Assembly (NCBI GenBank): GCA_024403515.1
Contig: JAKSRS010000005.1
Location: 1 to 64,000, forward strand
From: Lachnospiraceae bacterium
Lineage (GTDB): Bacteria > Bacillota > Clostridia > Lachnospirales > Lachnospiraceae
Direction of reading: 5' to 3'
DNA length: 64,000 bases
Positions 27,602 through 58,170 of this stretch are shown in pieces (position 1 is the first letter of the stretch; the number at the start of each line of letters is the position of its first letter). The position numbers and the translations under genes were made by a program. The notes under the pieces are model-generated. The model had not been told where the DNA came from, did no database searches, and saw nothing but the letters and a program-made list of their open reading frames with translations.

Positions 27602-28585
27602 TTATTTATTCAACACCTGTTCCCAGGGATTATTTTCAACAGTTCGCATATCTGTCAGGTCAAAGTTTTCTACCAAAAACCTGCCGATATAATCAGCCAT
27701 TTTTCGGGCACCGGTGGAATTTAAATGACCTTTGTCGAAATAATCCGTCTTGCCATCCAGGCCAATCTCTTGGACCACATTAAAGAGATTAAGGAAATAG
27801 CAGTCATGTGCAGCCGCAAACTCTTCCATCGCATCACCGTATTTCCATTCATTCCCGGTTGGTTGGATATAGAAAACAACCTCAATATCGTTTTCTTTAC
27901 AGGTATTTACGATTTCTTCCAGACATCCCACTGCATTATCTTTAAGCTTTTTCTGCGCCAAATCCTCATATTTTAGGATATCAACATCAGATGCATCATG
28001 CATTGGCATATAGCCCATATTGTATTTATATGTCGAATTAATAGGTAATGATTTAAATCTACCTTTGGATAACTCGGTCCAGTTATCATGAAAATAGCTA
28101 ATAGGGATGAAATACGTCAAATATTTACCCAGATCATTCCCACAGCACTCTCTAATATATTCCCACTTGGCAGCACGATCCTTTATATAGCGCGAATAAA
28201 AGATTTCGGCGCTCATATCTTTGTTATTTATCACACTACCCACATAAAAACACTCCACAAGCGCTACCTTAGGTTTTTGGCTTGTAAGCGAATCCTTTAG
28301 AAACATTTTAGTGGTATTCATCTTCTGCCAGTGCCAGCCATAATTATACATACCAATGCCGTATTCTTTGTATGCTTCCATCGGATCTAAGCCTCTAAAA
28401 GCATGACTCGAACCGTAAACAATAACTTCGGCCGAATTTTGGGGCAAACTGTGAAAAACTTCAACTTGTGTATGTACATCGTCAGTATCAATTGGTCTTA
28501 GCGCATGTCCTAATTTAACAATCCCTATAAGTGTAATTGTAATTGTCAGAACAACTTCCAAACAATAAACTAAAGTTCTTTTCAT
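27602..28585 (-). CDS. SGNH-like (DltD/AlgJ-type) surface acyltransfer protein
   Basis: Such proteins work with an MBOAT partner to place or remove acyl groups on a surface glycan. One N-terminal helix (about 5-25) anchors an outside domain. The serine sits in YGSSHAFRG near residue 60, and the Asp-His pair is in the C-terminal DKGHLNSTGA. The open frame begins with GTG two codons earlier, but TTAGGAG is well spaced only for the ATG at 28583-28585. The MBOAT gene ends 8 bp upstream, so the two form a pair. Confidence 0.82.
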   Translation of the reverse strand: MKRTLVYCLEVVLTITITLIGIVKLGHALRPIDTDDVHTQVEVFHSLPQNSAEVIVYGSSHAFRGLDPMEAYKEYGIGMYNYGWHWQKMNTTKMFLKDSLTSQKPKVALVECFYVGSVINNKDMSAEIFYSRYIKDRAAKWEYIRECCGNDLGKYLTYFIPISYFHDNWTELSKGRFKSLPINSTYKYNMGYMPMHDASDVDILKYEDLAQKKLKDNAVGCLEEIVNTCKENDIEVVFYIQPTGNEWKYGDAMEEFAAAHDCYFLNLFNVVQEIGLDGKTDYFDKGHLNSTGARKMADYIGRFLVENFDLTDMRTVENNPWEQVLNK

Positions 28586-28593
28586 TAGCACTC

Positions 28594-30090
28594 CTAAAAC
28601 TGAAAATAAATAAAACTAGCCTTATCAAGTGATGCGCCATACTTACCAAAAAGAAGAATTGTAAGTATTGATGCTGCGATAAAGATGCTTCGAATAAGAA
28701 CAAATCTTCTCATCATAAAGTCTCTTATTACGAAGCCTTTTCTTTTGCAAATATCTGTAAAAAGTAAGACTAAAATGGCAATAATAAGAAGTTTAAAATT
28801 CTTGACATCAAGCCCGCACTCATAAACAGCCCCTGTTGAGAAAATACTAAAATCAAGTTTAGTAAAAATCGAACCGGCAATCTCATTGGCCTGTTTAATG
28901 TTATCAGCCCTGAAGAAAATCCAGGCAAAAGAAACAAGCACATAAGTGATTAAAATTTTTATCAGCCTAACCAGCCATAAATCTGCTTTTATGTGGCAAA
29001 ACTTTGCAATCCTATCGCGAATTGGAAGTAATATTTCTCCAATAACCTGATACAATCCGTTCAAACCACCCCACACCACAAATGACCATGAGGCGCCATG
29101 CCATAAACCACTTACAAGAAAAACAATCATTTTATTTAAGTACTTACGAAACTTACCCTTACGACTGCCACCAAGTGGGATGTACAGATAGTCTTTAAAC
29201 CATGAGGTAAGCGAAATATGCCATCTTCTCCAGAAATCAGCAACACTTGTCGAAAGATATGGAGCATCAAAATTCTCCATCAAATCAACACCTAATATTC
29301 TTGCAGCTCCGGTTGCAATCAACGAATATCCGGCGAAATCACAATATATCTGGATTGAGAAGAAAAGAGTCGCAATAATTAGAAAGACCCCTGAATAATT
29401 TGCGTAATCACCATAAACGGTGTCAACAAAGATAGCCGCTCTGTCGGCAATCACGAGTTTCATAAAGTAGCCCCAAAGCATGAGTAAGAAGCCGCTTCTT
29501 GCGCCTTCAAAGTCAATCTTTTTAGGTTCAGCCAACTGCTTTAAAAGATTCTTGGAACGTTCAATGGGTCCCGCAACAAGCTGTGGGAAGAAAGATACAA
29601 ACAAAGCGTATCTAAAGAAGTTCTTCTCGGCATATATTTCATCCCGGTATACATCGATGGAGTAACCCAAAGCCTGGAAAGTATAAAAAGAAATACCTAC
29701 CGGAAGCAATATGTCGAATGTATGAATATTTAATTCAATATTCATCAATGCAAAAATGTTTGAAATAGATTCTAAGAAAAAGTTTGTATATTTAAAATAA
29801 CAAAGAATACCTAGATTGATACACAAACTGGCAATTAAAACCAGTTTATTGTATTTTTTAATCTTATCAGCAGATAAAGAACTCTTCTTTATCTTTTCCA
29901 TGAAAATACCGCTAAGATATGTAATGACAGTAGACGCTAAAATCAGAAGAATGTATCCCGGATTCCAGCACATATAAAAGAAATAGCTAGCAATTAAAAG
30001 CCAGATATATCTGACTTTCTTTGGAAGCGCATAATATAATAAAACTACGCATGGAAAGAAAAGTAAAAACTGGTATGAATTAAAAAGCAT
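28594..30090 (-). CDS. MBOAT family O-acyltransferase (PatA/AlgI-like)
   Basis: It moves an acyl group, usually acetyl, across the membrane to a surface polysaccharide. The 498 residues hold about ten to twelve helices. The family core is clear: YSIDVYR, FPQLVAGPIER, DFWRRWHISLTSWFKDYLYIPLGG (in part) and GLWHGASW with the conserved catalytic His. It ends in the family tail YFQF. GAGGTG precedes the ATG. It is first in the unit MBOAT-SGNH-NagZ. The glycan target is not known. Compared with the MBOAT at 41476 the sequences are clearly related, so the pair may be an older duplicate. Confidence 0.92.
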   Translation of the reverse strand: MLFNSYQFLLFFPCVVLLYYALPKKVRYIWLLIASYFFYMCWNPGYILLILASTVITYLSGIFMEKIKKSSLSADKIKKYNKLVLIASLCINLGILCYFKYTNFFLESISNIFALMNIELNIHTFDILLPVGISFYTFQALGYSIDVYRDEIYAEKNFFRYALFVSFFPQLVAGPIERSKNLLKQLAEPKKIDFEGARSGFLLMLWGYFMKLVIADRAAIFVDTVYGDYANYSGVFLIIATLFFSIQIYCDFAGYSLIATGAARILGVDLMENFDAPYLSTSVADFWRRWHISLTSWFKDYLYIPLGGSRKGKFRKYLNKMIVFLVSGLWHGASWSFVVWGGLNGLYQVIGEILLPIRDRIAKFCHIKADLWLVRLIKILITYVLVSFAWIFFRADNIKQANEIAGSIFTKLDFSIFSTGAVYECGLDVKNFKLLIIAILVLLFTDICKRKGFVIRDFMMRRFVLIRSIFIAASILTILLFGKYGASLDKASFIYFQF

Positions 30091-35076: not shown

Positions 35077-35115
35077 ATAAAAATACGTCGCAAAGGTCAA
35101 GCCTTGGCGACGTAA
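35077..35115 (-). terminator. Terminator of the FkbH-ACP-MBOAT-SGNH unit
   Basis: TACGTCGC (35084-35091) pairs with GCGACGTA (35107-35114), and AAGG/CCTT extends the stem after one mismatch. On the minus strand ATTTTTATAG follows. It lies 62 bp past the SGNH stop codon. Confidence 0.8.
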
Positions 35116-35176
35116 GATTAATGATATTACTAAACACAAGTTATATCGACTTAATATCATATCACTATTATATCAA

Positions 35177-36235
35177 CTAATTTATCGTGTTATCAGAATT
35201 ATTATCTAACTTCTGCTTATAGGTTGGATAAAAAGAATCCCTTTCTTTTCCGGCAAGAATCTTACAAACACATTCACTAAATTTTCCAGCCCCAACACCA
35301 TTGAGATGTCCGCAATCTTTATAATCTGATCTTTCCATACTCAAGAATTCTTCTTTTGCAAGATTAAAATCCATGTATTCCAGATTATTGTTAACAGCTA
35401 TTTCATTGATTGCATCTACATATTCTTGAAAATTCTTCGCTAAACTCAGAGTCGCATCTGGCATTGGTGGATTAACCAACACCAATTTTATATTATTATC
35501 GCGACAATAAGTAATAATCTTGTCCAAATATTTCAAAGAAAAATCAGATATAGGATTTTGAGGATCAATATATGTTACTTCGTCAAAGACAAAGTCTTCA
35601 TCTACAGCTTCAAAACTATAAACAAAGCCTTGTCCCCGATACGCCTCATTATCGTAAGTAACGTATTCGTATGAGTTGTTTTTGTACGTACCTTTAATAT
35701 GCTCCTTTAAAGTCTTGTAATCAGCCGTATATCCGTGCAAAAAAGGAAATATTCCATTAATTATTCCATCTATTCCAAAAGCATCATACAAATAATCCCA
35801 CTTAATGCGTCTATCTTTTAAATAATCTGCGATAATATATGTTTGTGTTTTATCTGCTTTTTTAAAGCTCTGCATAACATAAGTTACATCGAGATAAACA
35901 GTACCTACTCCATTTGTTTTGCTCACTTCTTTTAGCAAATAATACGATCCTTGCATTAGTTGAGCAGATGTACCTGCATTAAACACATTCAATCCAGTTT
36001 CCTCTTCTATCATGCCAACATCATAACTTCTATAGGTATGAGACGCCCCTAAGAAAAGAACATCTATATATCCATCTTTATGCATTTCGTCAAGCATTAT
36101 TCTGGTATAACTATTAATATCAGAAACAAAACAATAATTAAAAACGAATGGAATGATTGCTATAATTAAACATTTCACAAATAGAACGATCGCCTTATAT
36201 GCATCACTGCTCTTATCAATACTAAAACTGCGCAT
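35177..36235 (-). CDS. SGNH-like surface acyltransfer protein paired with MBOAT 2
   Basis: It is the probable outside partner of the MBOAT upstream, in the role DltD has in teichoic acid D-alanylation. One helix (about 16-40) anchors it. The serine lies in LGASHTYRSYD near residue 70, and the Asp-His pair in DCGHLNGVGA near residue 320. GGAAAGG is suitably spaced from the ATG at 36233-36235, two codons after the frame's TTG. The start lies inside the 3' end of the MBOAT gene (14-bp overlap), so translation is coupled. It is the last gene of a four-gene unit. Confidence 0.82.
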   Translation of the reverse strand: MRSFSIDKSSDAYKAIVLFVKCLIIAIIPFVFNYCFVSDINSYTRIMLDEMHKDGYIDVLFLGASHTYRSYDVGMIEEETGLNVFNAGTSAQLMQGSYYLLKEVSKTNGVGTVYLDVTYVMQSFKKADKTQTYIIADYLKDRRIKWDYLYDAFGIDGIINGIFPFLHGYTADYKTLKEHIKGTYKNNSYEYVTYDNEAYRGQGFVYSFEAVDEDFVFDEVTYIDPQNPISDFSLKYLDKIITYCRDNNIKLVLVNPPMPDATLSLAKNFQEYVDAINEIAVNNNLEYMDFNLAKEEFLSMERSDYKDCGHLNGVGAGKFSECVCKILAGKERDSFYPTYKQKLDNNSDNTIN

Positions 36236-37727
36236 AAGCAAATGCCTTTCCGCCTACATTATAAGAAGCCAATATCATTATTATGCATAAGATATATATC
36301 ATCCACCTTATACATACATTTTTTTTAGAAATAATATCTATTAAATCCTTGCCTTTATATAAATAAATATCAAATACAACTAAAGCGGCAAAAGACAATA
36401 GTAAGCAAAAACACCCTACCTTACCTGCCGGCACAACAGTAACCTTCATTGCAGATTTAATGGTTTCCAAATTGATATTAAAACCGACAGATTTTTTTAT
36501 TCTTAGTACAGCATCGCGCAATGAGTCTGCCCTAAAGAACAGCATACCTACTGTAAAAATCAAAAAAGTCCTTATGGTTTGGCCGGTTCTCCTTATGACC
36601 CCATCCTTAATTTTTATTTTACCTGCAAGAGGTTCTAAAATTTGCCCTAGCACAATAACTATCCAAAACCACAAGCCTTCTCCTATCACATATTTCCAAC
36701 TGTTACCATGCCAAACTCCCATAGCTAGCCACAAAACAAGCATAGACATATATAATGGTATTTTCTTGCCGATTTTTTTGCCAAACTTCTTTTTAGCTTT
36801 ATCACCAATGCAAATCATAAAATTTGACTTTAATATGGGATTCATAATATATTTTTTCAACCATAAGCCAAGAGTAATATGCCACCTCTGCCAGAATTCC
36901 TGAATAGTCTTCGATAGTAATGGTGCATTGAAGTTTTCTGTCAGTTTTACTCCAAAGCACTCAGAAACACCAAGTATAATATCCATGCATCCCGAAAAAT
37001 CTGCATATAATTGAAAAACATATCCCATGGTTAATATCCAAACCCACAAGCCATGGTATACATCCAAATTGTCCCAGAGTGCATTAATCATTATAGATAA
37101 TCTATTTGCTATAGCTAATTTTTTCAACAACCCCCAGGCTATTCTTTTCATGCCATGAGTTACTCTATCATAATCAAATCTATGTTCTTCATAAAACAAT
37201 GGGCTTAATTTTTCATACTCATTTATAGGTCCCGATACCATTAAAGGAAAATAGCTTGTAAAAAGTAATATTTTCAGCGGATTTTTTTCAGGCTTCGCAA
37301 CTCCCCAATAAGAATCCAGTAAATATGAGGTAATTTGTAATGTATAAAAACTAATGCCTAACGATGCTACCCAAGAAACAGTATCGACATGATATGAAGA
37401 TATTTTGCCTATGATTAAATTAAACGTATTGATAGCTAAATTTGTATATTTTAATGTCGCTAAAAGTCCGATATTAATGAGTAGTGAAATAATCAGTACT
37501 GTTTTCTTTCTACTTTGATTATCACTTTTCTCAAAATAGTTAACCGCTATCCATACAGATACAACACTAATCACAAGATACACAAATGTATACGCTTTAG
37601 CATTGAGAAAATAAAAAATAATGCTATCCGCTAACAAAACATACCACTGATAGCCTTTGGGAATCATCCAATAAGCAAGCAAGCTCACGGTCACAAAAAG
37701 CAAATAAACAAATGAAGTTATTTCCAT
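36222..37727 (-). CDS. MBOAT family O-acyltransferase, DltB-like, in the FkbH unit
   Basis: It probably transfers an acyl group from the carrier protein encoded two genes away to a cell-surface polymer. The 501 residues have about ten or more helices, the core ISFYTLQ, FPLMVSGPINEY, EFWQRWHITLGLWLKKYI (in part), and GVWHGNSWKY with the catalytic His. It is the most divergent of the three MBOATs here: the N-terminus differs and the middle is lysine-rich. AAGGGA precedes the ATG. FkbH and ACP lie just upstream (49-bp gap after ACP), an order that mirrors dltABCD. Confidence 0.9.
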   Translation of the reverse strand: MEITSFVYLLFVTVSLLAYWMIPKGYQWYVLLADSIIFYFLNAKAYTFVYLVISVVSVWIAVNYFEKSDNQSRKKTVLIISLLINIGLLATLKYTNLAINTFNLIIGKISSYHVDTVSWVASLGISFYTLQITSYLLDSYWGVAKPEKNPLKILLFTSYFPLMVSGPINEYEKLSPLFYEEHRFDYDRVTHGMKRIAWGLLKKLAIANRLSIMINALWDNLDVYHGLWVWILTMGYVFQLYADFSGCMDIILGVSECFGVKLTENFNAPLLSKTIQEFWQRWHITLGLWLKKYIMNPILKSNFMICIGDKAKKKFGKKIGKKIPLYMSMLVLWLAMGVWHGNSWKYVIGEGLWFWIVIVLGQILEPLAGKIKIKDGVIRRTGQTIRTFLIFTVGMLFFRADSLRDAVLRIKKSVGFNINLETIKSAMKVTVVPAGKVGCFCLLLSFAALVVFDIYLYKGKDLIDIISKKNVCIRWMIYILCIIMILASYNVGGKAFAYAQF

Positions 37728-37777
37728 AGTACTATCCCTTCATAATTCAATGTCATCGGCATCTTTATAGCCTTTTT

Positions 37778-38017
37778 TTATATACGTGTCATGATTATAT
37801 CAACCATTTCTCCCACGTTCTGAAAATTATTTACTTCTCCAATATTGAATTTAATTGAAAATTTCTTTTCGACCGCCACTACAAGATTAATGTGCTCCAA
37901 ACTATCCCAGTCTTCAATATCAGCTGCTGTCGTGCTATCACTTACAACTATTTCTTCATCATCAAACACATATCTAAATATTTCATTGAGTTTTTCGTAT
38001 ACTTCTTCTCTAGTCAT
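37778..38017 (-). CDS. Acyl carrier protein
   Basis: A dedicated carrier of 79 residues. DWDSLEHINLVVAVE places the phosphopantetheine serine at residue 39. The protein is acidic as expected. GGAGGAA precedes the ATG. FkbH ends 4 bp upstream and is the enzyme that would load it. The usual fatty acid genes are absent, so it is not the housekeeping AcpP. Confidence 0.92.
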   Translation of the reverse strand: MTREEVYEKLNEIFRYVFDDEEIVVSDSTTAADIEDWDSLEHINLVVAVEKKFSIKFNIGEVNNFQNVGEMVDIIMTRI

Positions 38018-38021
38018 CTTC

Positions 38022-39803
38022 TCATTCCTCCACTTTTATAACGTTATTTTTTTTCTTATAGTCAGAGTTTATTTTAAATATCCATTCAGTATTTCCATCA
38101 TCATCTTCTTTTATTTTTGTAAATCCCTGAAGCTGATAGAAATCTTTGACCATAGCATTTTTTGCAGTAGGATAATAGTATCCTCTAATTGTATCTATAT
38201 TTTGTTCCGCGCACTTCTTCACTAAAGAATCCATCATTGCAAATTCCATATCACGTTTCAGCACACGGCAACTCATAATCCACAAATCAATCTTACACTC
38301 AGATCCTACTTTATGTCCTATAACAACAGAAACAACTCCATTGTCACCAAAACGATCAATAAGCTTACCGTAAAGTGTAATATACTCGGGATTTGATGCT
38401 ATGGACTCTATTTCATTTTGCGTATATCGATGCGTTGTTAAATTGAATTGATTGCTCTTGTTGGTGAGTTGGGAAATACGCGCCATATAAATCGGCTCAA
38501 ATGATTTTATGACCCCAACCATATCAAGAGACAGCAAATAATCTGCATAATTTTCGAAGGATGCTTGCAATTCTGCACGTTGAGCATTTTCCTTGTACAT
38601 CTCGTTTCGTTTGATATCATCAGACGAAAACATTGTTACCTCAAAATATCCTCCTCTATCTATATTCTGTATATACTGATGAACTTCACCAATTTCTGGA
38701 GCAATTACTCCATGAAGTTGTTCTTCAACGATATGCCTTTCTGCAGGATTATCATCAACAAACAGCAAACTTTCCGGCAAAAGGTTAATTTCCTCAGCTA
38801 TCTGCTTAAAATTGCGATCCTTAGGATCCCAATTTGCTTTTATAGATACAAAATCATCTTTATGTAGCTCACTATCTGGATGTGCTAATCCTGCTATAGC
38901 ATTCGCTTCATCATTTTTGGAGTCAATGTTCAAAATTATGCCCAACTGGGTGTGCTCTTTAAGATATCTTTGAAACTCTGAATACGTCTGCCCTTCTGAT
39001 TCCTCAGGGCCAATAACTATGTTGTCAACACCATCATCTCCTATAATGCCGCCCCATAATGTATTATCAAGATCAAGAACAAATCCTTTCTTATTTTTCC
39101 CAAATATAGACTTAATTATATTAGCAATATTAAAAGAAAGATATGGAATAGCATTTACATTCACTGCGTATTTGTACATATGATAATAAAAAGGATCTGA
39201 CCACTCCTTTAACCCATAGTCAGCTGAAATATAATTGATGTCACAAATAAAAAAATTATCGTGTGTTTGCGCATACTCATAAAATATTAGATTCAATCTT
39301 GTCAAAAAGTTAACTTTTCCATGTATATCAGACGCTTCCTTATTTCCCATAAGTCTATAAAAAGGCATTTCAAAATTGTTTTGAATAATAGGACACTTAT
39401 ATCTTGTCAACAAACTATCCCATATTCCGAAAAATTTTGCCTTCTCTTTGCTTAGTAAGGAATCAATCGCATCAGCTGAGTCGCTTATCTCTGGGTATTT
39501 TGTAATATTACGGTTTGTGGTACATATATATATAATATCTGGATTGAATTTCTCTAGTTCAGGATTATCAAACATTGCATCCTGATAATACTGATTATAT
39601 TCGCTCTCGTAAAAAGAGGGTTCAATCCCATTGTTCAACAAAAACAATTCCATGATAAGTTTTATATTGCTTGTCGTTGACCCTCCCAAAATGGCAATAT
39701 TTTTTTTGATTCTTGTTGTTCCATCCGCAAGAAGCATTCTTTTAATGCTTTTCTTTCTGCCTAGTATATACTCCGCATCAAATGGATATAGTAGTTCCTT
39801 CAT
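38022..39803 (-). CDS. FkbH-like HAD-family acyl-loading enzyme
   Basis: FkbH proteins take the glyceryl group from 1,3-bisphosphoglycerate, remove the phosphate and load it on an acyl carrier protein. The 593 residues have an N-terminal SGNH-like domain (AILGGSTTS near 37-45), the HAD domain (LDLDNTLWGG with the catalytic Asp pair at 244 and 246, DSKNDEA near 294, FVDDNPAER near 348) and a C-terminal GNAT-like domain (about 430-580). In many relatives the residue before SKN is Cys, but here it is Asp. If that Cys carries the acyl group, loading may differ. AAAGGGTG precedes the ATG. It is first in a unit with ACP, MBOAT and SGNH genes. Confidence 0.9.
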   Translation of the reverse strand: MKELLYPFDAEYILGRKKSIKRMLLADGTTRIKKNIAILGGSTTSNIKLIMELFLLNNGIEPSFYESEYNQYYQDAMFDNPELEKFNPDIIYICTTNRNITKYPEISDSADAIDSLLSKEKAKFFGIWDSLLTRYKCPIIQNNFEMPFYRLMGNKEASDIHGKVNFLTRLNLIFYEYAQTHDNFFICDINYISADYGLKEWSDPFYYHMYKYAVNVNAIPYLSFNIANIIKSIFGKNKKGFVLDLDNTLWGGIIGDDGVDNIVIGPEESEGQTYSEFQRYLKEHTQLGIILNIDSKNDEANAIAGLAHPDSELHKDDFVSIKANWDPKDRNFKQIAEEINLLPESLLFVDDNPAERHIVEEQLHGVIAPEIGEVHQYIQNIDRGGYFEVTMFSSDDIKRNEMYKENAQRAELQASFENYADYLLSLDMVGVIKSFEPIYMARISQLTNKSNQFNLTTHRYTQNEIESIASNPEYITLYGKLIDRFGDNGVVSVVIGHKVGSECKIDLWIMSCRVLKRDMEFAMMDSLVKKCAEQNIDTIRGYYYPTAKNAMVKDFYQLQGFTKIKEDDDGNTEWIFKINSDYKKKNNVIKVEE

Positions 39804-39946
39804 CAGCCCTGTTCACCCTTTCCTTAGCAAATATTACAATTTGCCTGCTTGTTTTATGGCAGATTATCATGTTCCAAAAACATTTATTTTTAGCTCAGTT
39901 TTTTCATTCCTGCCAGAACATAAACAGCCCATAACCATACTAATTT

Positions 39947-39975
39947 ATGGTATATCACACCACCTTCGAAGTCAA
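39947..39975 (-). promoter_or_regulatory. Candidate promoter of the FkbH unit
   Basis: On the minus strand TTGACT (39970-39975), 17 bases and TACCAT (39947-39952) give a plausible promoter, with a leader of about 140 bases before fkbH. The -10 matches at four of six positions. Confidence 0.45.
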
Positions 39976-40458: not shown

Positions 40459-41427
40459 TCATTTCGACAGATAAGCATCGATAACTTCATCCTTCAGAAT
40501 ATTCATAAATGCGGTCGCGCCGTCCTGATTCATATGATCAGCATCTCTAAAATACCTGTGGTTGTCACAAATCCTTGCATCGGTGCCGTAATCCAGATAT
40601 TCTATACCATACTTTTCAGCTATCTCTCTTACTTTTTCATCGAATCTGCTTAAATATCCATCTGAATACTCTTCAAAACAATCTAAGTATTCTCGTGATG
40701 TAGGCAACGTAATCAAAAATATGTTGACGTTCTTTCCTCTTAATGCCTCAACGATGTTTTCGAGTGAATCTATTTTCTCTTCACACCACATGATACTTCC
40801 ATCATTTTCTTTTCTTCTTTCATAGTGTTTCTCATAGGTCTTGTAAGCTGCGTCAGCAAATTTACTGTCATCCAAATAACTAACCGGTCTCTCAGGTCCC
40901 TTACCTCTCACAAAATCATAGATTGTGTCCAAAAAGTAGTCATACGAAGTCAGCACTGGGCACCAATGATAACAGATATCAGTGAACAAACTGTAGTCCG
41001 GTATATCTTTCTTGGGCAATATTCTATAATACCTTACTCCTTCTGGTTTATTAATATCAGTACTTCTATCAACTTCATTCAGCATACTAATATATGAGAC
41101 ATTGATGAAAACGATAGCTCCATCAGAAAGCCTATCTATATAATTATCAAGCACAATCTTATCTACACCAAATAGCTGTCCTGTCTGTGCAAAGTTAAAT
41201 CCATTATCCGGGTATTGTTCATACGAAAAGCCATAATAAGCGTGACTATTTCCAAAATTACAAACATCAATTTTATCCGGTATATTGTAAAATCTACAGC
41301 TTTCCTCATCATGCCATATTCCATATTTCACATAGAAAAGATTTGCAATAAAAATCAGAAGAAGTGAAACAGCAAGAACAAGGCATATTTTTGCGAAAAA
41401 CTTTAGTATTGACTTATACTCTTTCAT
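40459..41427 (-). CDS. SGNH-like surface acyltransfer protein paired with MBOAT 3
   Basis: The probable partner of the MBOAT gene 48 bp upstream. One helix (about 10-30) anchors it. The serine lies in FGNSHAYYGF near residue 60, and the C-terminal Asp-His in RDADHMNQDGA near residue 300. At 322 residues it is similar in size to the others but differs in most of its sequence. GAGAGTG precedes the ATG. It is the last recognisable gene of the polysaccharide operon before the gene-free stretch. Confidence 0.8.
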   Translation of the reverse strand: MKEYKSILKFFAKICLVLAVSLLLIFIANLFYVKYGIWHDEESCRFYNIPDKIDVCNFGNSHAYYGFSYEQYPDNGFNFAQTGQLFGVDKIVLDNYIDRLSDGAIVFINVSYISMLNEVDRSTDINKPEGVRYYRILPKKDIPDYSLFTDICYHWCPVLTSYDYFLDTIYDFVRGKGPERPVSYLDDSKFADAAYKTYEKHYERRKENDGSIMWCEEKIDSLENIVEALRGKNVNIFLITLPTSREYLDCFEEYSDGYLSRFDEKVREIAEKYGIEYLDYGTDARICDNHRYFRDADHMNQDGATAFMNILKDEVIDAYLSK

Positions 41428-41475
41428 TTATTAATCACTCTCTATCCATTCTGTATCTGACACGACATAAAAAAA

Positions 41476-42930
41476 CTAGAATTGAAAATAAACAAACTGC
41501 GCAGCTATATCTTTACGCGCCATGATGATCAATGCAACAACAGCAATAATATAAATCAAAAATCGAACTATCGGTTTCTGCTTTCTTATTATCGTAACCA
41601 CGTCGCCACGATAATAATTTATGCCATCATATATAGCAAGTACTAAAATGCATAGCAAAATATATAAAGTTTGAATATTCCCGCTAATGCCAGCTTTGCT
41701 TATAGCATCCATGATATATGTTTTAATTGAGATTATTCCACTAAAAACGTTACGATATATATACCATGCGTCAGATATGGAATTAGCTCTAAATAAAACC
41801 CATGCAAACATAACTACAACGAATGTAAGAATACGTCCAAAACATTTTCCTACTCTTGAAAGGATTTTATTCTTACAATGAATTATAGATTTTATATGCT
41901 TTTCAACAATCTGTGATGCACCATGCACTCCGCCCCATAACAAAAATGTCCAATTGGCACCATGCCAAATTCCGCTCACCATAAATGTTGTTAAAAGATT
42001 TACATCTCTTCTAACTTTTCCTTTTCGATTTCCACCAAGTGGAATATAAATATAATCTTTGAACCATGTCGATAATGATATATGCCATCTGCTCCAAAAC
42101 TCGCTAATAGACGATGAAAAATACGGATTAGAAAAATTAGTCATCAAGTCAATATCAAGTAATTTTGCCGAGCCGATTGCTATATCTGAATATCCCGAAA
42201 AATCACAATAAATCTGTATAGTGAAAAAGAATGCCGCTAAAAGCAAAGTCCCCCCCTTATACAAATCTACCGAATTAAACACCGTATCAACATAAACAGA
42301 TAGCATATCTGCAATAACAAGTTTCTTAAAAAGCCCTACAACAATAAGTATCATTCCATATGATGCTTTATCTTCATCAAATTTATGTTCGGCTTTTATC
42401 TGCGGTAATAAATTACCGGTTCTTTCTATAGGTCCTGCCACAAGTTGAGGAAAAAAAGAAACGAAAGTTGCATATATACCTAAATTTTTCTCCGCCTTTA
42501 CTTTACCTCTATACACATCAATGACATAGCTCATAGTTTGAAATGTATAAAAAGATATTCCAACCGGCAGAACAAGTTTTTTAGTGAAGTCCCCTAGCGG
42601 AATCGCAACATTTGAAAATAGAATAGCCAAATTCTCAATTACAAACCCTAAGTATTTAAACGTAAATAGAATTCCTCCCGACAATACCACAGCAGCCGCA
42701 ATACACATTTTCTTAATCTTTACACTATCTGTTCTTTCAATTGCCAGAGCGCACAGATAAGAAACCACTGTTGTTGCCATTATTAGAAGAATATATTTAG
42801 GATTCCAGCTCATATAAAAATAATAGCTGGCCACCAATAGCAGACACCATCTGAATCTATTTGGTATCAACCAATAAACAAAAAAGACTATAGGTAAAAA
42901 TATAGCGTATGCTAAAGAATTAAATAGCAT
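41476..42930 (-). CDS. MBOAT family O-acyltransferase 3 (PatA/AlgI-like)
   Basis: It probably O-acetylates the polysaccharide made by this locus. The 484 residues hold about ten or more helices, with YVIDVYRG, FPQLVAGPIER, EFWSRWHISLSTWFKDYIYI (in part), GIWHGANWTF and the tail VYFQF. It is clearly closer to the MBOAT at 28594 than to the one at 36222. AGAGGTG precedes the ATG. It lies 24 bp after a GT4 gene, inside the operon. Confidence 0.92.
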   Translation of the reverse strand: MLFNSLAYAIFLPIVFFVYWLIPNRFRWCLLLVASYYFYMSWNPKYILLIMATTVVSYLCALAIERTDSVKIKKMCIAAAVVLSGGILFTFKYLGFVIENLAILFSNVAIPLGDFTKKLVLPVGISFYTFQTMSYVIDVYRGKVKAEKNLGIYATFVSFFPQLVAGPIERTGNLLPQIKAEHKFDEDKASYGMILIVVGLFKKLVIADMLSVYVDTVFNSVDLYKGGTLLLAAFFFTIQIYCDFSGYSDIAIGSAKLLDIDLMTNFSNPYFSSSISEFWSRWHISLSTWFKDYIYIPLGGNRKGKVRRDVNLLTTFMVSGIWHGANWTFLLWGGVHGASQIVEKHIKSIIHCKNKILSRVGKCFGRILTFVVVMFAWVLFRANSISDAWYIYRNVFSGIISIKTYIMDAISKAGISGNIQTLYILLCILVLAIYDGINYYRGDVVTIIRKQKPIVRFLIYIIAVVALIIMARKDIAAQFVYFQF

Positions 42931-47239: not shown

Positions 47240-47620
47240 TCAGATATTCTCGTCCTCTATCACATTTGCAATACCAAAAGAATCTCTTTTAGTGTTAATT
47301 GCTAAGCCCATCTTTAAACCTGAAGGTTTATCATCATTGACAAGAATCCTTTCACCATATGGCGCGTCAAAAATAATATGATTGTACCTTATTCCATTTC
47401 TAAGCAAAAACTTCTCAGTCTCGTCCCTATATTCGCTCTTTCGAGCTGTAATAAAGATAATCATATCTTTATCTGGTATCTTAGCAAAAAAATCCATAGC
47501 ACCGGGAAGTAATGTATCTTCGCCGTCTATTTTGTACCCATTATGTTTTACTATCGTTCCATCAAGGTCAAGTATCCAAGTATGCCCTAGGGTTGATAAT
47601 ATTATTGAATCATTTTCCAT
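47240..47620 (-). CDS. Small HAD-family phosphatase of a sugar-activation set
   Basis: The 126 residues form a minimal HAD fold: WILDLDGTIV with the nucleophile Asp18 and Asp20, FITARKSEYRDET for the second motif, and VNDDKPSG for the acidic motif. Small HADs of this kind dephosphorylate sugar phosphates, as GmhB and KdsC do. The start overlaps the 3' end of the triple-fusion gene by 11 bp and has AGGAGA before it. Its substrate is probably the product of a step carried out by the fusion protein. That last point is inference. Confidence 0.8.
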   Translation of the reverse strand: MENDSIILSTLGHTWILDLDGTIVKHNGYKIDGEDTLLPGAMDFFAKIPDKDMIIFITARKSEYRDETEKFLLRNGIRYNHIIFDAPYGERILVNDDKPSGLKMGLAINTKRDSFGIANVIEDENI

Positions 47621-49736
47621 TTTTAAGCATATCTCCTATAGCACCACCCGGATGATTCGGTTTGAAGTCGTCTTCCAATGACAAATGGAATCTTTTAGCA
47701 AGTTCCATAGCAATCTTCTGCAGAACAATAAGATTGATTGTTGTCGAGTGATTTGGAACAACATCCCACGCGTCACCTTCATGCAACAGATGCACAATCA
47801 GTTTGTTATCCATTTTATTGGCTAATGGACTTTCTTCTTCAAAACTTAGTAACCATAAACCAACACCTTCGCGTTTTTCGAGCAATTCCTCCAAGTAAAT
47901 TGATTCTACAGTTGCACCACTCTTAGTAAGAATGATCACTGTATCACCAGGCTTGACCATACCTAAGTCGCCATGTACAGCAGTATTGGTATGAAGAAAG
48001 TTTGCGTCCAGGCCAAGAGACAGCATAGTACCTACAAACTTATCACAAATTGGCACGTTCTTGCCAAGTCCTGAAGCTATGATTTTATGACCGCTTCTAA
48101 TTGTTCTTTCACAGTCATCTATCAGTCTGTTCATCTGTTCAACATCAATAGACTTCAACGCTGAACCAATTGTATTCCAGTCATCTAAGAAATAATATTC
48201 ATAGGCACTACTCATTGATAAAGCTTCTTCAAGATAGTACAAACCATTATAAAAAGCTCCGCAAATTGAATCATAGTCTTCCCAGGCATACGTCGTTAAG
48301 CTCAGCCATACAATGGCAAGGAATAATTTCATCTGCTGTCTTGATACACGGCCATCCAATAATGCAAAGAACTCATCTTCTAATTCCTCCCAATGGTTAG
48401 ACTCAATATCAAGATCAACTGCTTCATCACCTATATGCAATCTAAATCTCTTTAAGTTAAATTGATCATAGTTACTAAACAAAGAATAATATAGTTTTAC
48501 CCAGTCATAGGCTTCGTCACCATACAATTCAGTTGTTCCAAAATATCCTCTCGGATCAATCAAAACCGGTGTTCCATCTTTGGACAACATGATATTGCTA
48601 AAGGTGCAGTCTCCATGAATAAGTACAAATTCTTTGGGTAGATACTTCATCACAAGTTTTGTTACTTCTTCCTTGTGGTAGAAGATATTTCGGCAAACAC
48701 GGCCGTTCACGGTAACATATTCTTCGTTTGCAAAAGGAACCAGATATCTGGTTTTTTCAAGTCTTTCAAATGTTTTATCTATATAGGCATTCTTAAAACT
48801 ATCAGCATCTGAAGCGACTGAGCCAAGAGAATGAACATTGTTTAAACAGTCTACTAACTGATTTAAAATATTCTTCTTTTCACTCAAAGAAATGTTGTCA
48901 CATTCATAGATGTTTTTTCCATCTATGTAATCCATACACAACGGTTCAAAACTGTGGATGTTCGGTAAGTTCTTAAATGAACAATCCTTTAAAGCTTTAT
49001 ACCAAGCAATTTCTCTTACAGCAAGTTTTTCACCCTGACTGTCTATTGCTTCTTTATAGAATTTACCGTCCTTCACATACACCTTATTAAATGGACGACA
49101 CTTTGCTTTTGAAAGTTTACTCCAGGCATCATAAAGGCCATATTCATGTGTATGATATAATCCCTGCTCTTCGAACGTCATATTCTTGGATTGAAGCCAT
49201 CTGACAAACTCACCTTCGCACGGGACATCGCAAATATCTTTTTTATCGTTAAATATAAAGAATCCTGCTACACCAAATTCTTCACTACGCTCTTCTTCAA
49301 ACTTCCCGTTTTCATATTTCCAACGACAAGAGAAATCTTTTGAGATACCAATAACATTGCCATCATACTCAGGAAAAGCATAATCAGTAGGAAGAACCAA
49401 ATCACACCATATAAGTAAGAAACGTTCACCTTCCGGCACTAGTCCAAGTGCCTCAGACATTCCTGCACATGTACCACTATGTCCACTTCCGCATACAAGT
49501 GAATAGTCTACTTCTGCAAACTCCTTAAGGTAGCGCTCTAAAACATCGTATTTGTAGTCACCAATAATAATGTATTTTTTATCAGGAAACTTTCTAAACA
49601 GATGAAAAATCATAGGAAGGTTTTCAATCGGAACCAATGCTTTGGGCTTATTGGCCGTTAAACTTTCCATTCTTGTTCCTTTTCCACCTGCTTGTACAAT
49701 TATATAATTTGGTTCAAAGCCACTTCTTGTATTCAT
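47610..49736 (-). CDS. Triple fusion: nucleotidyltransferase, kinase and SIS isomerase
   Basis: One 708-residue protein carries three enzymes. Residues 1-205 are a sugar-1-phosphate nucleotidyltransferase (QAGGKGTRMESLTANKPKAL in parts: GGKGTRM, KPKAL, then WCDLVL). Residues 210-505 are an aminoglycoside/choline-kinase-like domain (MDYIDGKNI, HGDCTFSNIML near 374, LIDPRGYFG near 392). Residues 525-705 are a SIS domain of the KdsD/GutQ type (SGLGKN near 555, TKSGAT near 604, HGDLGM at 588, HPGGAIG near 695) without CBS domains. Together with the HAD phosphatase they resemble the set isomerase-kinase-phosphatase-nucleotidyltransferase used for activated heptoses. A polyol or pentose route is also possible. 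GGGAG precedes the ATG. No frameshift is needed. Confidence 0.85.
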   Translation of the reverse strand: MNTRSGFEPNYIIVQAGGKGTRMESLTANKPKALVPIENLPMIFHLFRKFPDKKYIIIGDYKYDVLERYLKEFAEVDYSLVCGSGHSGTCAGMSEALGLVPEGERFLLIWCDLVLPTDYAFPEYDGNVIGISKDFSCRWKYENGKFEEERSEEFGVAGFFIFNDKKDICDVPCEGEFVRWLQSKNMTFEEQGLYHTHEYGLYDAWSKLSKAKCRPFNKVYVKDGKFYKEAIDSQGEKLAVREIAWYKALKDCSFKNLPNIHSFEPLCMDYIDGKNIYECDNISLSEKKNILNQLVDCLNNVHSLGSVASDADSFKNAYIDKTFERLEKTRYLVPFANEEYVTVNGRVCRNIFYHKEEVTKLVMKYLPKEFVLIHGDCTFSNIMLSKDGTPVLIDPRGYFGTTELYGDEAYDWVKLYYSLFSNYDQFNLKRFRLHIGDEAVDLDIESNHWEELEDEFFALLDGRVSRQQMKLFLAIVWLSLTTYAWEDYDSICGAFYNGLYYLEEALSMSSAYEYYFLDDWNTIGSALKSIDVEQMNRLIDDCERTIRSGHKIIASGLGKNVPICDKFVGTMLSLGLDANFLHTNTAVHGDLGMVKPGDTVIILTKSGATVESIYLEELLEKREGVGLWLLSFEEESPLANKMDNKLIVHLLHEGDAWDVVPNHSTTINLIVLQKIAMELAKRFHLSLEDDFKPNHPGGAIGDMLKNGK

Positions 49737-56985: not shown

Positions 56986-58170
56986 TTATTCGCCCATTTG
57001 ACTCTTTATATCCGCATCAACAATCTCTTCACCGCTTCTGGTCTTTAACTGTTCCATACTCTCTTGTGAAAGGCCATTGTTGACCACTGCGCACATGTCG
57101 CAGGTGCTGCATTTATCAAGTTCCTCTTTGGAAACCTTGCCATCCCTGTAATCACGGACAATTTTATTTTCATACATACTGTATGGATGCTTACTAAACA
57201 ATGCTTTTATCTTATGAAGCACTACCCATGTAGCAGGCTTTAAAATATACTTATGCATTGCAGGAGAAACCGAACCAATCATCCAGCAGTCACGGTCGCA
57301 ACATCTTACCTTGCTTCTGACAGCATCAGCCTCGGGACTGTTCCAAAGTTCATCCCAAGACTGGCTGTTGAGATTCCCCATTACTTCTTTATCCTTAGTT
57401 CCATTACAAGGCATTACATCTCCGTATGGATCAATAAAGAAAGTATCAAAACTCATATCACAGGGAAGAAGTCTCTTCTGTCCATAGATATAGTTTATAA
57501 GGCCATGATTGAAATAAGCTCTAAACCACTTTTTAGGACTATTGCTCCTTAAAAGTTCATTGATTAAATCTTCAAAGTTTTTAGCAACCATCGGTCTGTC
57601 ATTAATAATGTTTTTAGCTTCCACGAAATAGAAACTATTATGAAGCGAAGCTGTTGCAAATTCCATACCCATTTCATTAGAGATTTGATATAAAGGAACC
57701 AGATCAGGAGCATTCTTATCCTGAACGGTCATACCAAAACCAACGTCCTTCATTCCCATCTCTCTAAGTTTTTTAAGAGTCTGATATCCTCTCTGATAAC
57801 CGTCTTCAAGGCCTCTTATAGAATTATTAGTATCTTCAAGACCTTCGATAGAAATACGAATTCCAACCTGCGGAAACTCTTTGGCCAAATCGATGATTCT
57901 ATCTGTAAAAAATCCATTAGTTGAAATGACAATTCTATCGGATTTTTTATATAACTCTCTTACTATGTCCTTTAAATCCGTTCTGATAAAAGGCTCTCCA
58001 CCTGTGATGTTTGTAAAGTACATCTTAGGAAGCTTCTTAATAGTTTCAATACTTATTTCTTCTTCAGGCTTGGAAGGTGCTTTATATCTGTTACACATAG
58101 AACATCTAGCATTACATCTGTATGTAACAATAACCGTTCCGTTAAGTTTCTTATCCAGCTTTTCGCCCAT
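56986..58170 (-). CDS. Radical SAM/SPASM protein in the polysaccharide locus
   Basis: It cleaves S-adenosylmethionine with a [4Fe-4S] cluster held by C19, C23 and C26 (CNARCSMC). NITGGEPFIRTD binds SAM. After the barrel a SPASM-like segment has CDMSFDTFFIDPYGDVMPCNG, then CCDRDCWM and CSTCDMC, with enough cysteines for one or two more clusters. At 394 residues it is complete. ACGGAGA precedes the ATG. It is flanked by glycosyltransferases. Substrate is unknown: a sugar, a lipid-linked glycan or a peptide. Relatives include MoaA- and AlbA-like enzymes. Confidence 0.85.
   Translation of the reverse strand: MGEKLDKKLNGTVIVTYRCNARCSMCNRYKAPSKPEEEISIETIKKLPKMYFTNITGGEPFIRTDLKDIVRELYKKSDRIVISTNGFFTDRIIDLAKEFPQVGIRISIEGLEDTNNSIRGLEDGYQRGYQTLKKLREMGMKDVGFGMTVQDKNAPDLVPLYQISNEMGMEFATASLHNSFYFVEAKNIINDRPMVAKNFEDLINELLRSNSPKKWFRAYFNHGLINYIYGQKRLLPCDMSFDTFFIDPYGDVMPCNGTKDKEVMGNLNSQSWDELWNSPEADAVRSKVRCCDRDCWMIGSVSPAMHKYILKPATWVVLHKIKALFSKHPYSMYENKIVRDYRDGKVSKEELDKCSTCDMCAVVNNGLSQESMEQLKTRSGEEIVDADIKSQMGE

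Follow-up and report, generated by a model that had tools for sequence, protein, structure and literature searches.

In a stretch of 64,000 nucleotides from the genome of a gut or rumen Lachnospiraceae bacterium (positions 1 to 64,000 of contig JAKSRS010000005.1, hereafter the window), four genes on the minus strand follow one another in the order FkbH, acyl carrier protein (ACP), MBOAT and SGNH. This raises the question of whether they form a unit like Dlt in which FkbH takes over from the adenylating ligase, as the original prediction held. The fused acyl shuttle, the catalytic residues, the gene order and a set of ligase-fed sister operons strongly support that reading, and it is likely that the operon encodes a Dlt-like, carrier-protein-fed acylation system, loaded by FkbH, which would esterify an extracellular glycan.

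The genes are tightly packed (Table 1), with 4 bp between FkbH and ACP and 50 bp between ACP and MBOAT, and a sequence scan found no terminator-like site between the latter two. The SGNH gene does begin inside the MBOAT gene, as had been predicted; its ATG (36235) lies 14 bp within it and is preceded by a ribosome site (GGCGGAAAGG). At the 3' end, a hairpin with a folding energy of -18 kcal/mol (z -5.25) was matched in stability by 0 of 200 shuffles, and is followed by a U run. The four genes had also been placed between one candidate promoter and one terminator. Genes, order and terminator stand, but the promoter-like site matches the consensus at chance level, with 38 such sites in the region versus 42 in shuffles, and was rejected as evidence for the operon. 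Upstream, a terminator-like hairpin parts the operon from another MBOAT/SGNH pair, the end of a glycosyltransferase cluster that extends from 40459 to about 63 kb. Two other genes of this cluster may be mentioned: one (47610–49736) encodes a three-domain protein, NTP transferase, APH kinase and SIS, which hints at a substituent of an unusual kind (an activated sugar or a choline-like group), and another (56986–58170) a radical SAM/SPASM protein.

Table 1. Features of the operon and its surroundings in the window, and groups of related loci
Feature	Position or loci	Strand	Remarks
FkbH-type loader	38022-39803	-	593 aa; SGNH-like N-domain, HAD-IIIC domain, GNAT-like C-terminal domain
Dedicated acyl carrier protein (ACP)	37778-38017	-	79 aa; WDSL attachment site
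MBOAT	36222-37727	-	501 aa; putatively carrier-protein-fed clade
FXYXXF acyl shuttle (FAYAQF)	36225-36242	-	C-terminal hexapeptide of the MBOAT
SGNH-fold membrane-anchored protein, putative transferase	35177-36235 (from ATG)	-	352 aa; presumed DltD/PatB role; Ser in GAS-H, DxxH dyad
Intrinsic terminator of the operon	35078-35114 (hairpin 35084-35114)	-	Stable fold and U run
Promoter-like site, unproven	39947-39975	-	TTGACT, 17 nt, TACCAT; 9/12 consensus match
Upstream terminator-like hairpin	40103-40076		
MBOAT/SGNH pair flanking the operon	27602-30090		
MBOAT/SGNH pair flanking the operon	40459-42930		
DUF4910 and AAC(3)-like genes directly before FkbH-ACP, at C44 (second FkbH-ACP-MBOAT-SGNH locus of the genome) and L104	L014:14930-18970 (C44), L104		
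FkbH-ACP operons with VOC protein	L049, L050, L053, L054, L072, L080, L160, L161, L166, L174		
FkbH-ACP-MBOAT-HAD operons	L080-L082, L084, L087, L133, L135, L143, L145, L149, L155		MBOAT ends FIYARI/FIYATI
Ligase-ACP-MBOAT-SGNH operons	L209-L219, L221, L224, L225, L227, L228		Fused FXYXXF mostly

The loader is a clear member of its family, with 246.5 bits against TIGR01686 (curated cut-off 146.65) and a match to Pfam FkbH_N. The HAD aspartates (D244, D246, D350 and D351), S295 and C512, the cysteine of the SCRV motif, are invariant in 21 relatives, and the predicted model (pLDDT 90) is matched first by 3slr and next by GNAT folds. The ACP scores 20.9 bits against PF00550 (PP-binding; cut-off 20.8) and has S39 as the attachment serine of WDSL. 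Its best solved relative is 2lml, a putative ACP of Geobacter metallireducens (69.5 bits). FAS-like ACPs also occur elsewhere in the genome. According to published proposals, FkbH proteins charge ACPs with glyceryl taken from 1,3-bisphosphoglycerate (PMC7489565, PMC13122637), and a glyceryl or lactyl chemistry is proposed here from what FkbH enzymes do in natural-product pathways. FkbH would draw its acyl group from a three-carbon acid in phosphorylated form, the most probable case being D-glyceryl with 1,3-bisphosphoglycerate as its source, and would load it as a thioester onto the dedicated holo-ACP.

The linkage of FkbH to MBOAT is not a matter of chance. In a sample of unselected genomes from the class, together with relatives, an MBOAT gene lies within 5 kb of 24 out of 40 standalone long FkbH genes, where 0.55 would be expected. 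A wider survey covered 80 FkbH loci from named genomes, 47 of them with both flanks present; the counts come from mechanically called ORFs in relatives that depend on one another, and on these terms an ACP directly follows FkbH in 62 of the 80, an MBOAT lies within 8 kb in 39 of the 47 fully sequenced neighbourhoods, and the remaining 8 carry an FkbH-ACP cassette with no MBOAT. The order FkbH-ACP-(accessory)-MBOAT-SGNH is found across many genera and families, including many Clostridia, and FkbH, ACP and MBOAT show correlated distances (r 0.72–0.77). Among the loci with FkbH, ACP and MBOAT are those of Eisenbergiella tayi DSM 26961 (L168) and Lachnospiraceae bacterium 28-4 (L120), the latter with an ORF called on the opposite strand ahead of the MBOAT.

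The accessory genes bear on which group is transferred. In many related loci, the genes inserted between ACP and MBOAT encode a MaoC dehydratase, with or without a FabG-like SDR, or a VOC protein that is nearest to methylmalonyl-CoA epimerase but below its cut-off, and which may invert the alpha carbon of the acyl-ACP. These relatives would make lactyl-type or epimerised variants. They also lend some weight to the best of the alternatives, namely that the machine is the same but the acyl group another: glyceryl might be converted before transfer (to lactyl by dehydration and reduction, or to epimerised L-glyceryl), or FkbH might use a different acyl phosphate. For the operon in the window this is a possibility to be taken seriously, though an unlikely one, as no such accessory genes are present and the simplest donor would be the FkbH product as it stands; because there is no tailoring gene, D-glyceryl would be the simplest product.

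The MBOAT matches PF03062 with 41.6 bits (cut-off 27), and its H283 and H340 align with His289 and His336 of DltB (DltB residues: PMC11035591). Against the DltB-like model TIGR04091 it reaches 137.6 bits, where the cut-off for DltB is 375. A special closeness to DltB was considered and rejected; a neighbouring MBOAT scores higher (156 versus 137.6 bits), and true DltB proteins branch apart in the tree. The C-terminus, FAYAQF, fits the hexapeptide FXYXXF, which is present on nearly all relatives. The tyrosine of this motif carries the acyl group; in Dlt it is found on DltX and elsewhere it is fused to the MBOAT (PMC12148441). MBOAT-SGNH systems other than Dlt are reported to have no carrier protein and to use acyl-CoA (PMC12148441, 2025). 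Since the motif is part of the MBOAT, no DltX-like microprotein is needed, and the presence of both a carrier protein and a fused motif makes the operon a combination of the two known designs. Within it, the MBOAT would carry the acyl group across the membrane and hand it to Y498, the tyrosine of the FAYAQF at its own end. A residue other than phenylalanine at motif position 4 was considered as a mark of ACP-fed MBOATs, but F occurs in 19 linked versus 21 of 31 unlinked proteins, a tendency only, and the mark was not used. One conserved group of operons has the order FkbH-ACP-MBOAT-HAD, the last protein being of 202 aa; the MBOAT there has FIYARI or FIYATI at its end where FXYXXF would stand, and no SGNH gene is adjacent.

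When 291 genomes of the class were searched with the MBOAT alignment only, the nearest relatives after the FkbH-linked ones came from operons of other Clostridia that encode a 500-aa ligase, optionally a PLP decarboxylase or other gene, an ACP, an MBOAT and an SGNH protein. The PLP decarboxylase of some of these is LysA-like and lies between ligase and ACP. The ligases are amino-acid adenylating enzymes, over or near the cut-off of TIGR01733, and score 261–305 bits against the DltA model (cut-off 560), so that they are related to DltA but are not DltA; one of them, used as a query, found relatives in 17 of 20 loci. By curated cut-offs, then, these operons appear to be Dlt-like without having DltA or DltB. 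In a maximum-likelihood tree the ligase-linked and FkbH-linked MBOATs of this type form a single clade of 47 rows (98/97), while true DltB and most of the genome's other MBOATs are placed elsewhere. Nested in it is a clade of 26 rows (100/99), 25 of which are FkbH-linked. The loader thus changes between ligase and FkbH within one MBOAT clade, and nothing speaks more strongly than this shared clade for the ACP as donor of the MBOAT in the window and for FkbH in the ligase's place. Acyl-ACP would be expected to bind the MBOAT from its cytoplasmic side. Some FkbH-linked MBOATs fall outside the clade, namely the copy at C44 and those of the FLYFRF type, which precede FkbH, so the pairing of FkbH cassettes with MBOATs has arisen more than once. 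We do not propose a single origin, because on the tree the linked label must have been gained or lost several times.

The genome itself offers further comparisons. The original prediction proposed looking for the four-gene order where dltA is missing, and this genome is such a case, its best match to DltA having 84 bits against a cut-off of 559.85. Its MBOAT genes number 17, many of them beside a gene of SGNH type, and two such pairs flank the operon (Table 1). The contigs with MBOAT genes carry only two ACPs, both adjacent to FkbH; the other MBOATs have no adjoining ACP. The second of these FkbH-ACP sites is C44, where the same four-gene order recurs with an MBOAT from a different clade. Directly before FkbH at C44 are DUF4910 and AAC(3)-like acyltransferase genes, as is also the case at L104, an FkbH-ACP locus with no MBOAT, and for this reason FkbH-ACP probably serves other acyltransferases as well. 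Such genes suit the idea that FkbH-ACP feeds a cytoplasmic acyltransferase, for example in N-acylation of a nonulosonic acid (compare the di-O-methylglyceryl pseudaminic acid of Campylobacter flagellin), while MBOAT and SGNH are an unrelated acetyltransferase. With these genes, C44 and L104 resemble the Campylobacter locus behind a glyceric-acid pseudaminic acid, and their DUF4910 genes are presumably of the same DUF type as Cj1295 from there. Cj1295 has been tied to a glyceric-acid sugar (PMC3068675). The operon in the window, however, has no DUF4910 or AAC(3)-like gene, and members of its MBOAT clade adjoin an ACP and a loader, be it FkbH or an adenylating ligase, which makes a purely cytoplasmic role improbable.

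Neither Pfam nor NCBIfam gives a match for the SGNH protein. S65 and H310 are invariant in 18 relatives, an N-terminal helix is predicted at residues 11–36, and the predicted model, although of mediocre quality (pLDDT 76), has an SGNH fold. Foldseek places DltD structures first (6pfx, E 3.9e-5; 3bma, E 6.2e-5), but esterases are equal to them by VIA Z. The protein might on that account be an esterase, removing acyl groups instead of adding them. We regard this as distinctly improbable, given that it is membrane-anchored, that its gene overlaps the MBOAT gene, and that in many related loci SGNH genes adjoin an FXYXXF MBOAT, as with DltD and PatB. As a transferase, it would take the acyl group from the MBOAT on its catalytic serine and esterify a hydroxyl of an extracellular glycan.

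A part in a natural-product pathway (tetronate or glycerate-primed NRPS) can be set aside as very improbable indeed, for although FkbH is best known from such pathways (PMC7489565, PMC13122637), neither the operon nor those neighbours that were examined contain a PKS or NRPS gene, the surroundings are recA, recX and RNase Y downstream and the glycosyltransferase cluster upstream, and of 7 FkbH domains that form part of large PKS/NRPS-type proteins none has an MBOAT within 5 kb. Against the Dlt-like reading itself may be counted the cassettes with no MBOAT, the different clade of the C44 MBOAT, the group with HAD in place of SGNH, the generic esterase matches and the unproven promoter.

Since FkbH ordinarily draws on a three-carbon acid of glycolysis, the operon probably places glycerate-type esters on a surface sugar polymer. 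If so, it would provide a genetic basis for such esters on bacterial surface glycans, through a frequent gut and rumen system in which a carrier protein and a fused shuttle are joined to a loader that draws on a glycolytic intermediate. The logic of Dlt would then be modular, and a swap of the loader would change the chemical mark. Whether carrier-protein-fed MBOAT-SGNH systems with interchangeable loaders make up a whole family, widespread in Clostridia, is an evenly balanced matter; in such a family ligases would supply amino acids, FkbH glycolysis-derived glyceryl, and FkbH with VOC or MaoC-SDR proteins tailored variants, with one export machine setting different ester marks on surface glycans. 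Among open-licence texts, FkbH is mentioned together with MBOAT or glycan glyceryl groups only in two papers on cyanobacterial natural products, which is no proof of novelty.

Several known systems share parts of this design. The tetronate, methoxymalonyl and glycerate-primed NRPS pathways have the same loader family and a standalone ACP, but pass the acyl group to a PKS/NRPS or FabH-like enzyme, whereas in the operon it would go to the MBOAT. The di-O-methylglyceryl pseudaminic acid of Campylobacter jejuni (Cj1295 locus) has a glycerate-type group on a surface sugar, as the operon would produce; PMC3068675 describes no MBOAT-SGNH route for it, and similar accessory genes are found at C44 but not in the operon of the window. 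PatA/PatB and AlgI-type acetylation systems resemble the operon in their MBOAT-fused FXYXXF and SGNH partner, but are fed by acyl-CoA with no carrier protein (PMC12148441), whereas the operon encodes a dedicated ACP and its loader. The clostridial ligase operons (L209-L219, L221, L224, L225, L227) have the same order and an MBOAT of the same clade, and differ in having a 500-aa amino-acid adenylating enzyme where FkbH sits. Finally, Dlt (DltA-DltC-DltB-DltX-DltD, for teichoic acid D-alanylation; models TIGR01734, TIGR04091 and TIGR04092) corresponds to the operon in its loader, dedicated carrier protein, MBOAT and shuttle motif and, putatively, in its SGNH transferase, the carrier protein of the operon being the presumed donor. 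It differs in that the operon has FkbH for the adenylating DltA and no ligase, bears the motif on the MBOAT itself with no DltX, and has an MBOAT far from true DltB in the tree. Judged from its sequence, the operon would work like Dlt but lies outside it by ligase, DltB score and DltX, and seems best filed under MBOAT-SGNH surface acylation.
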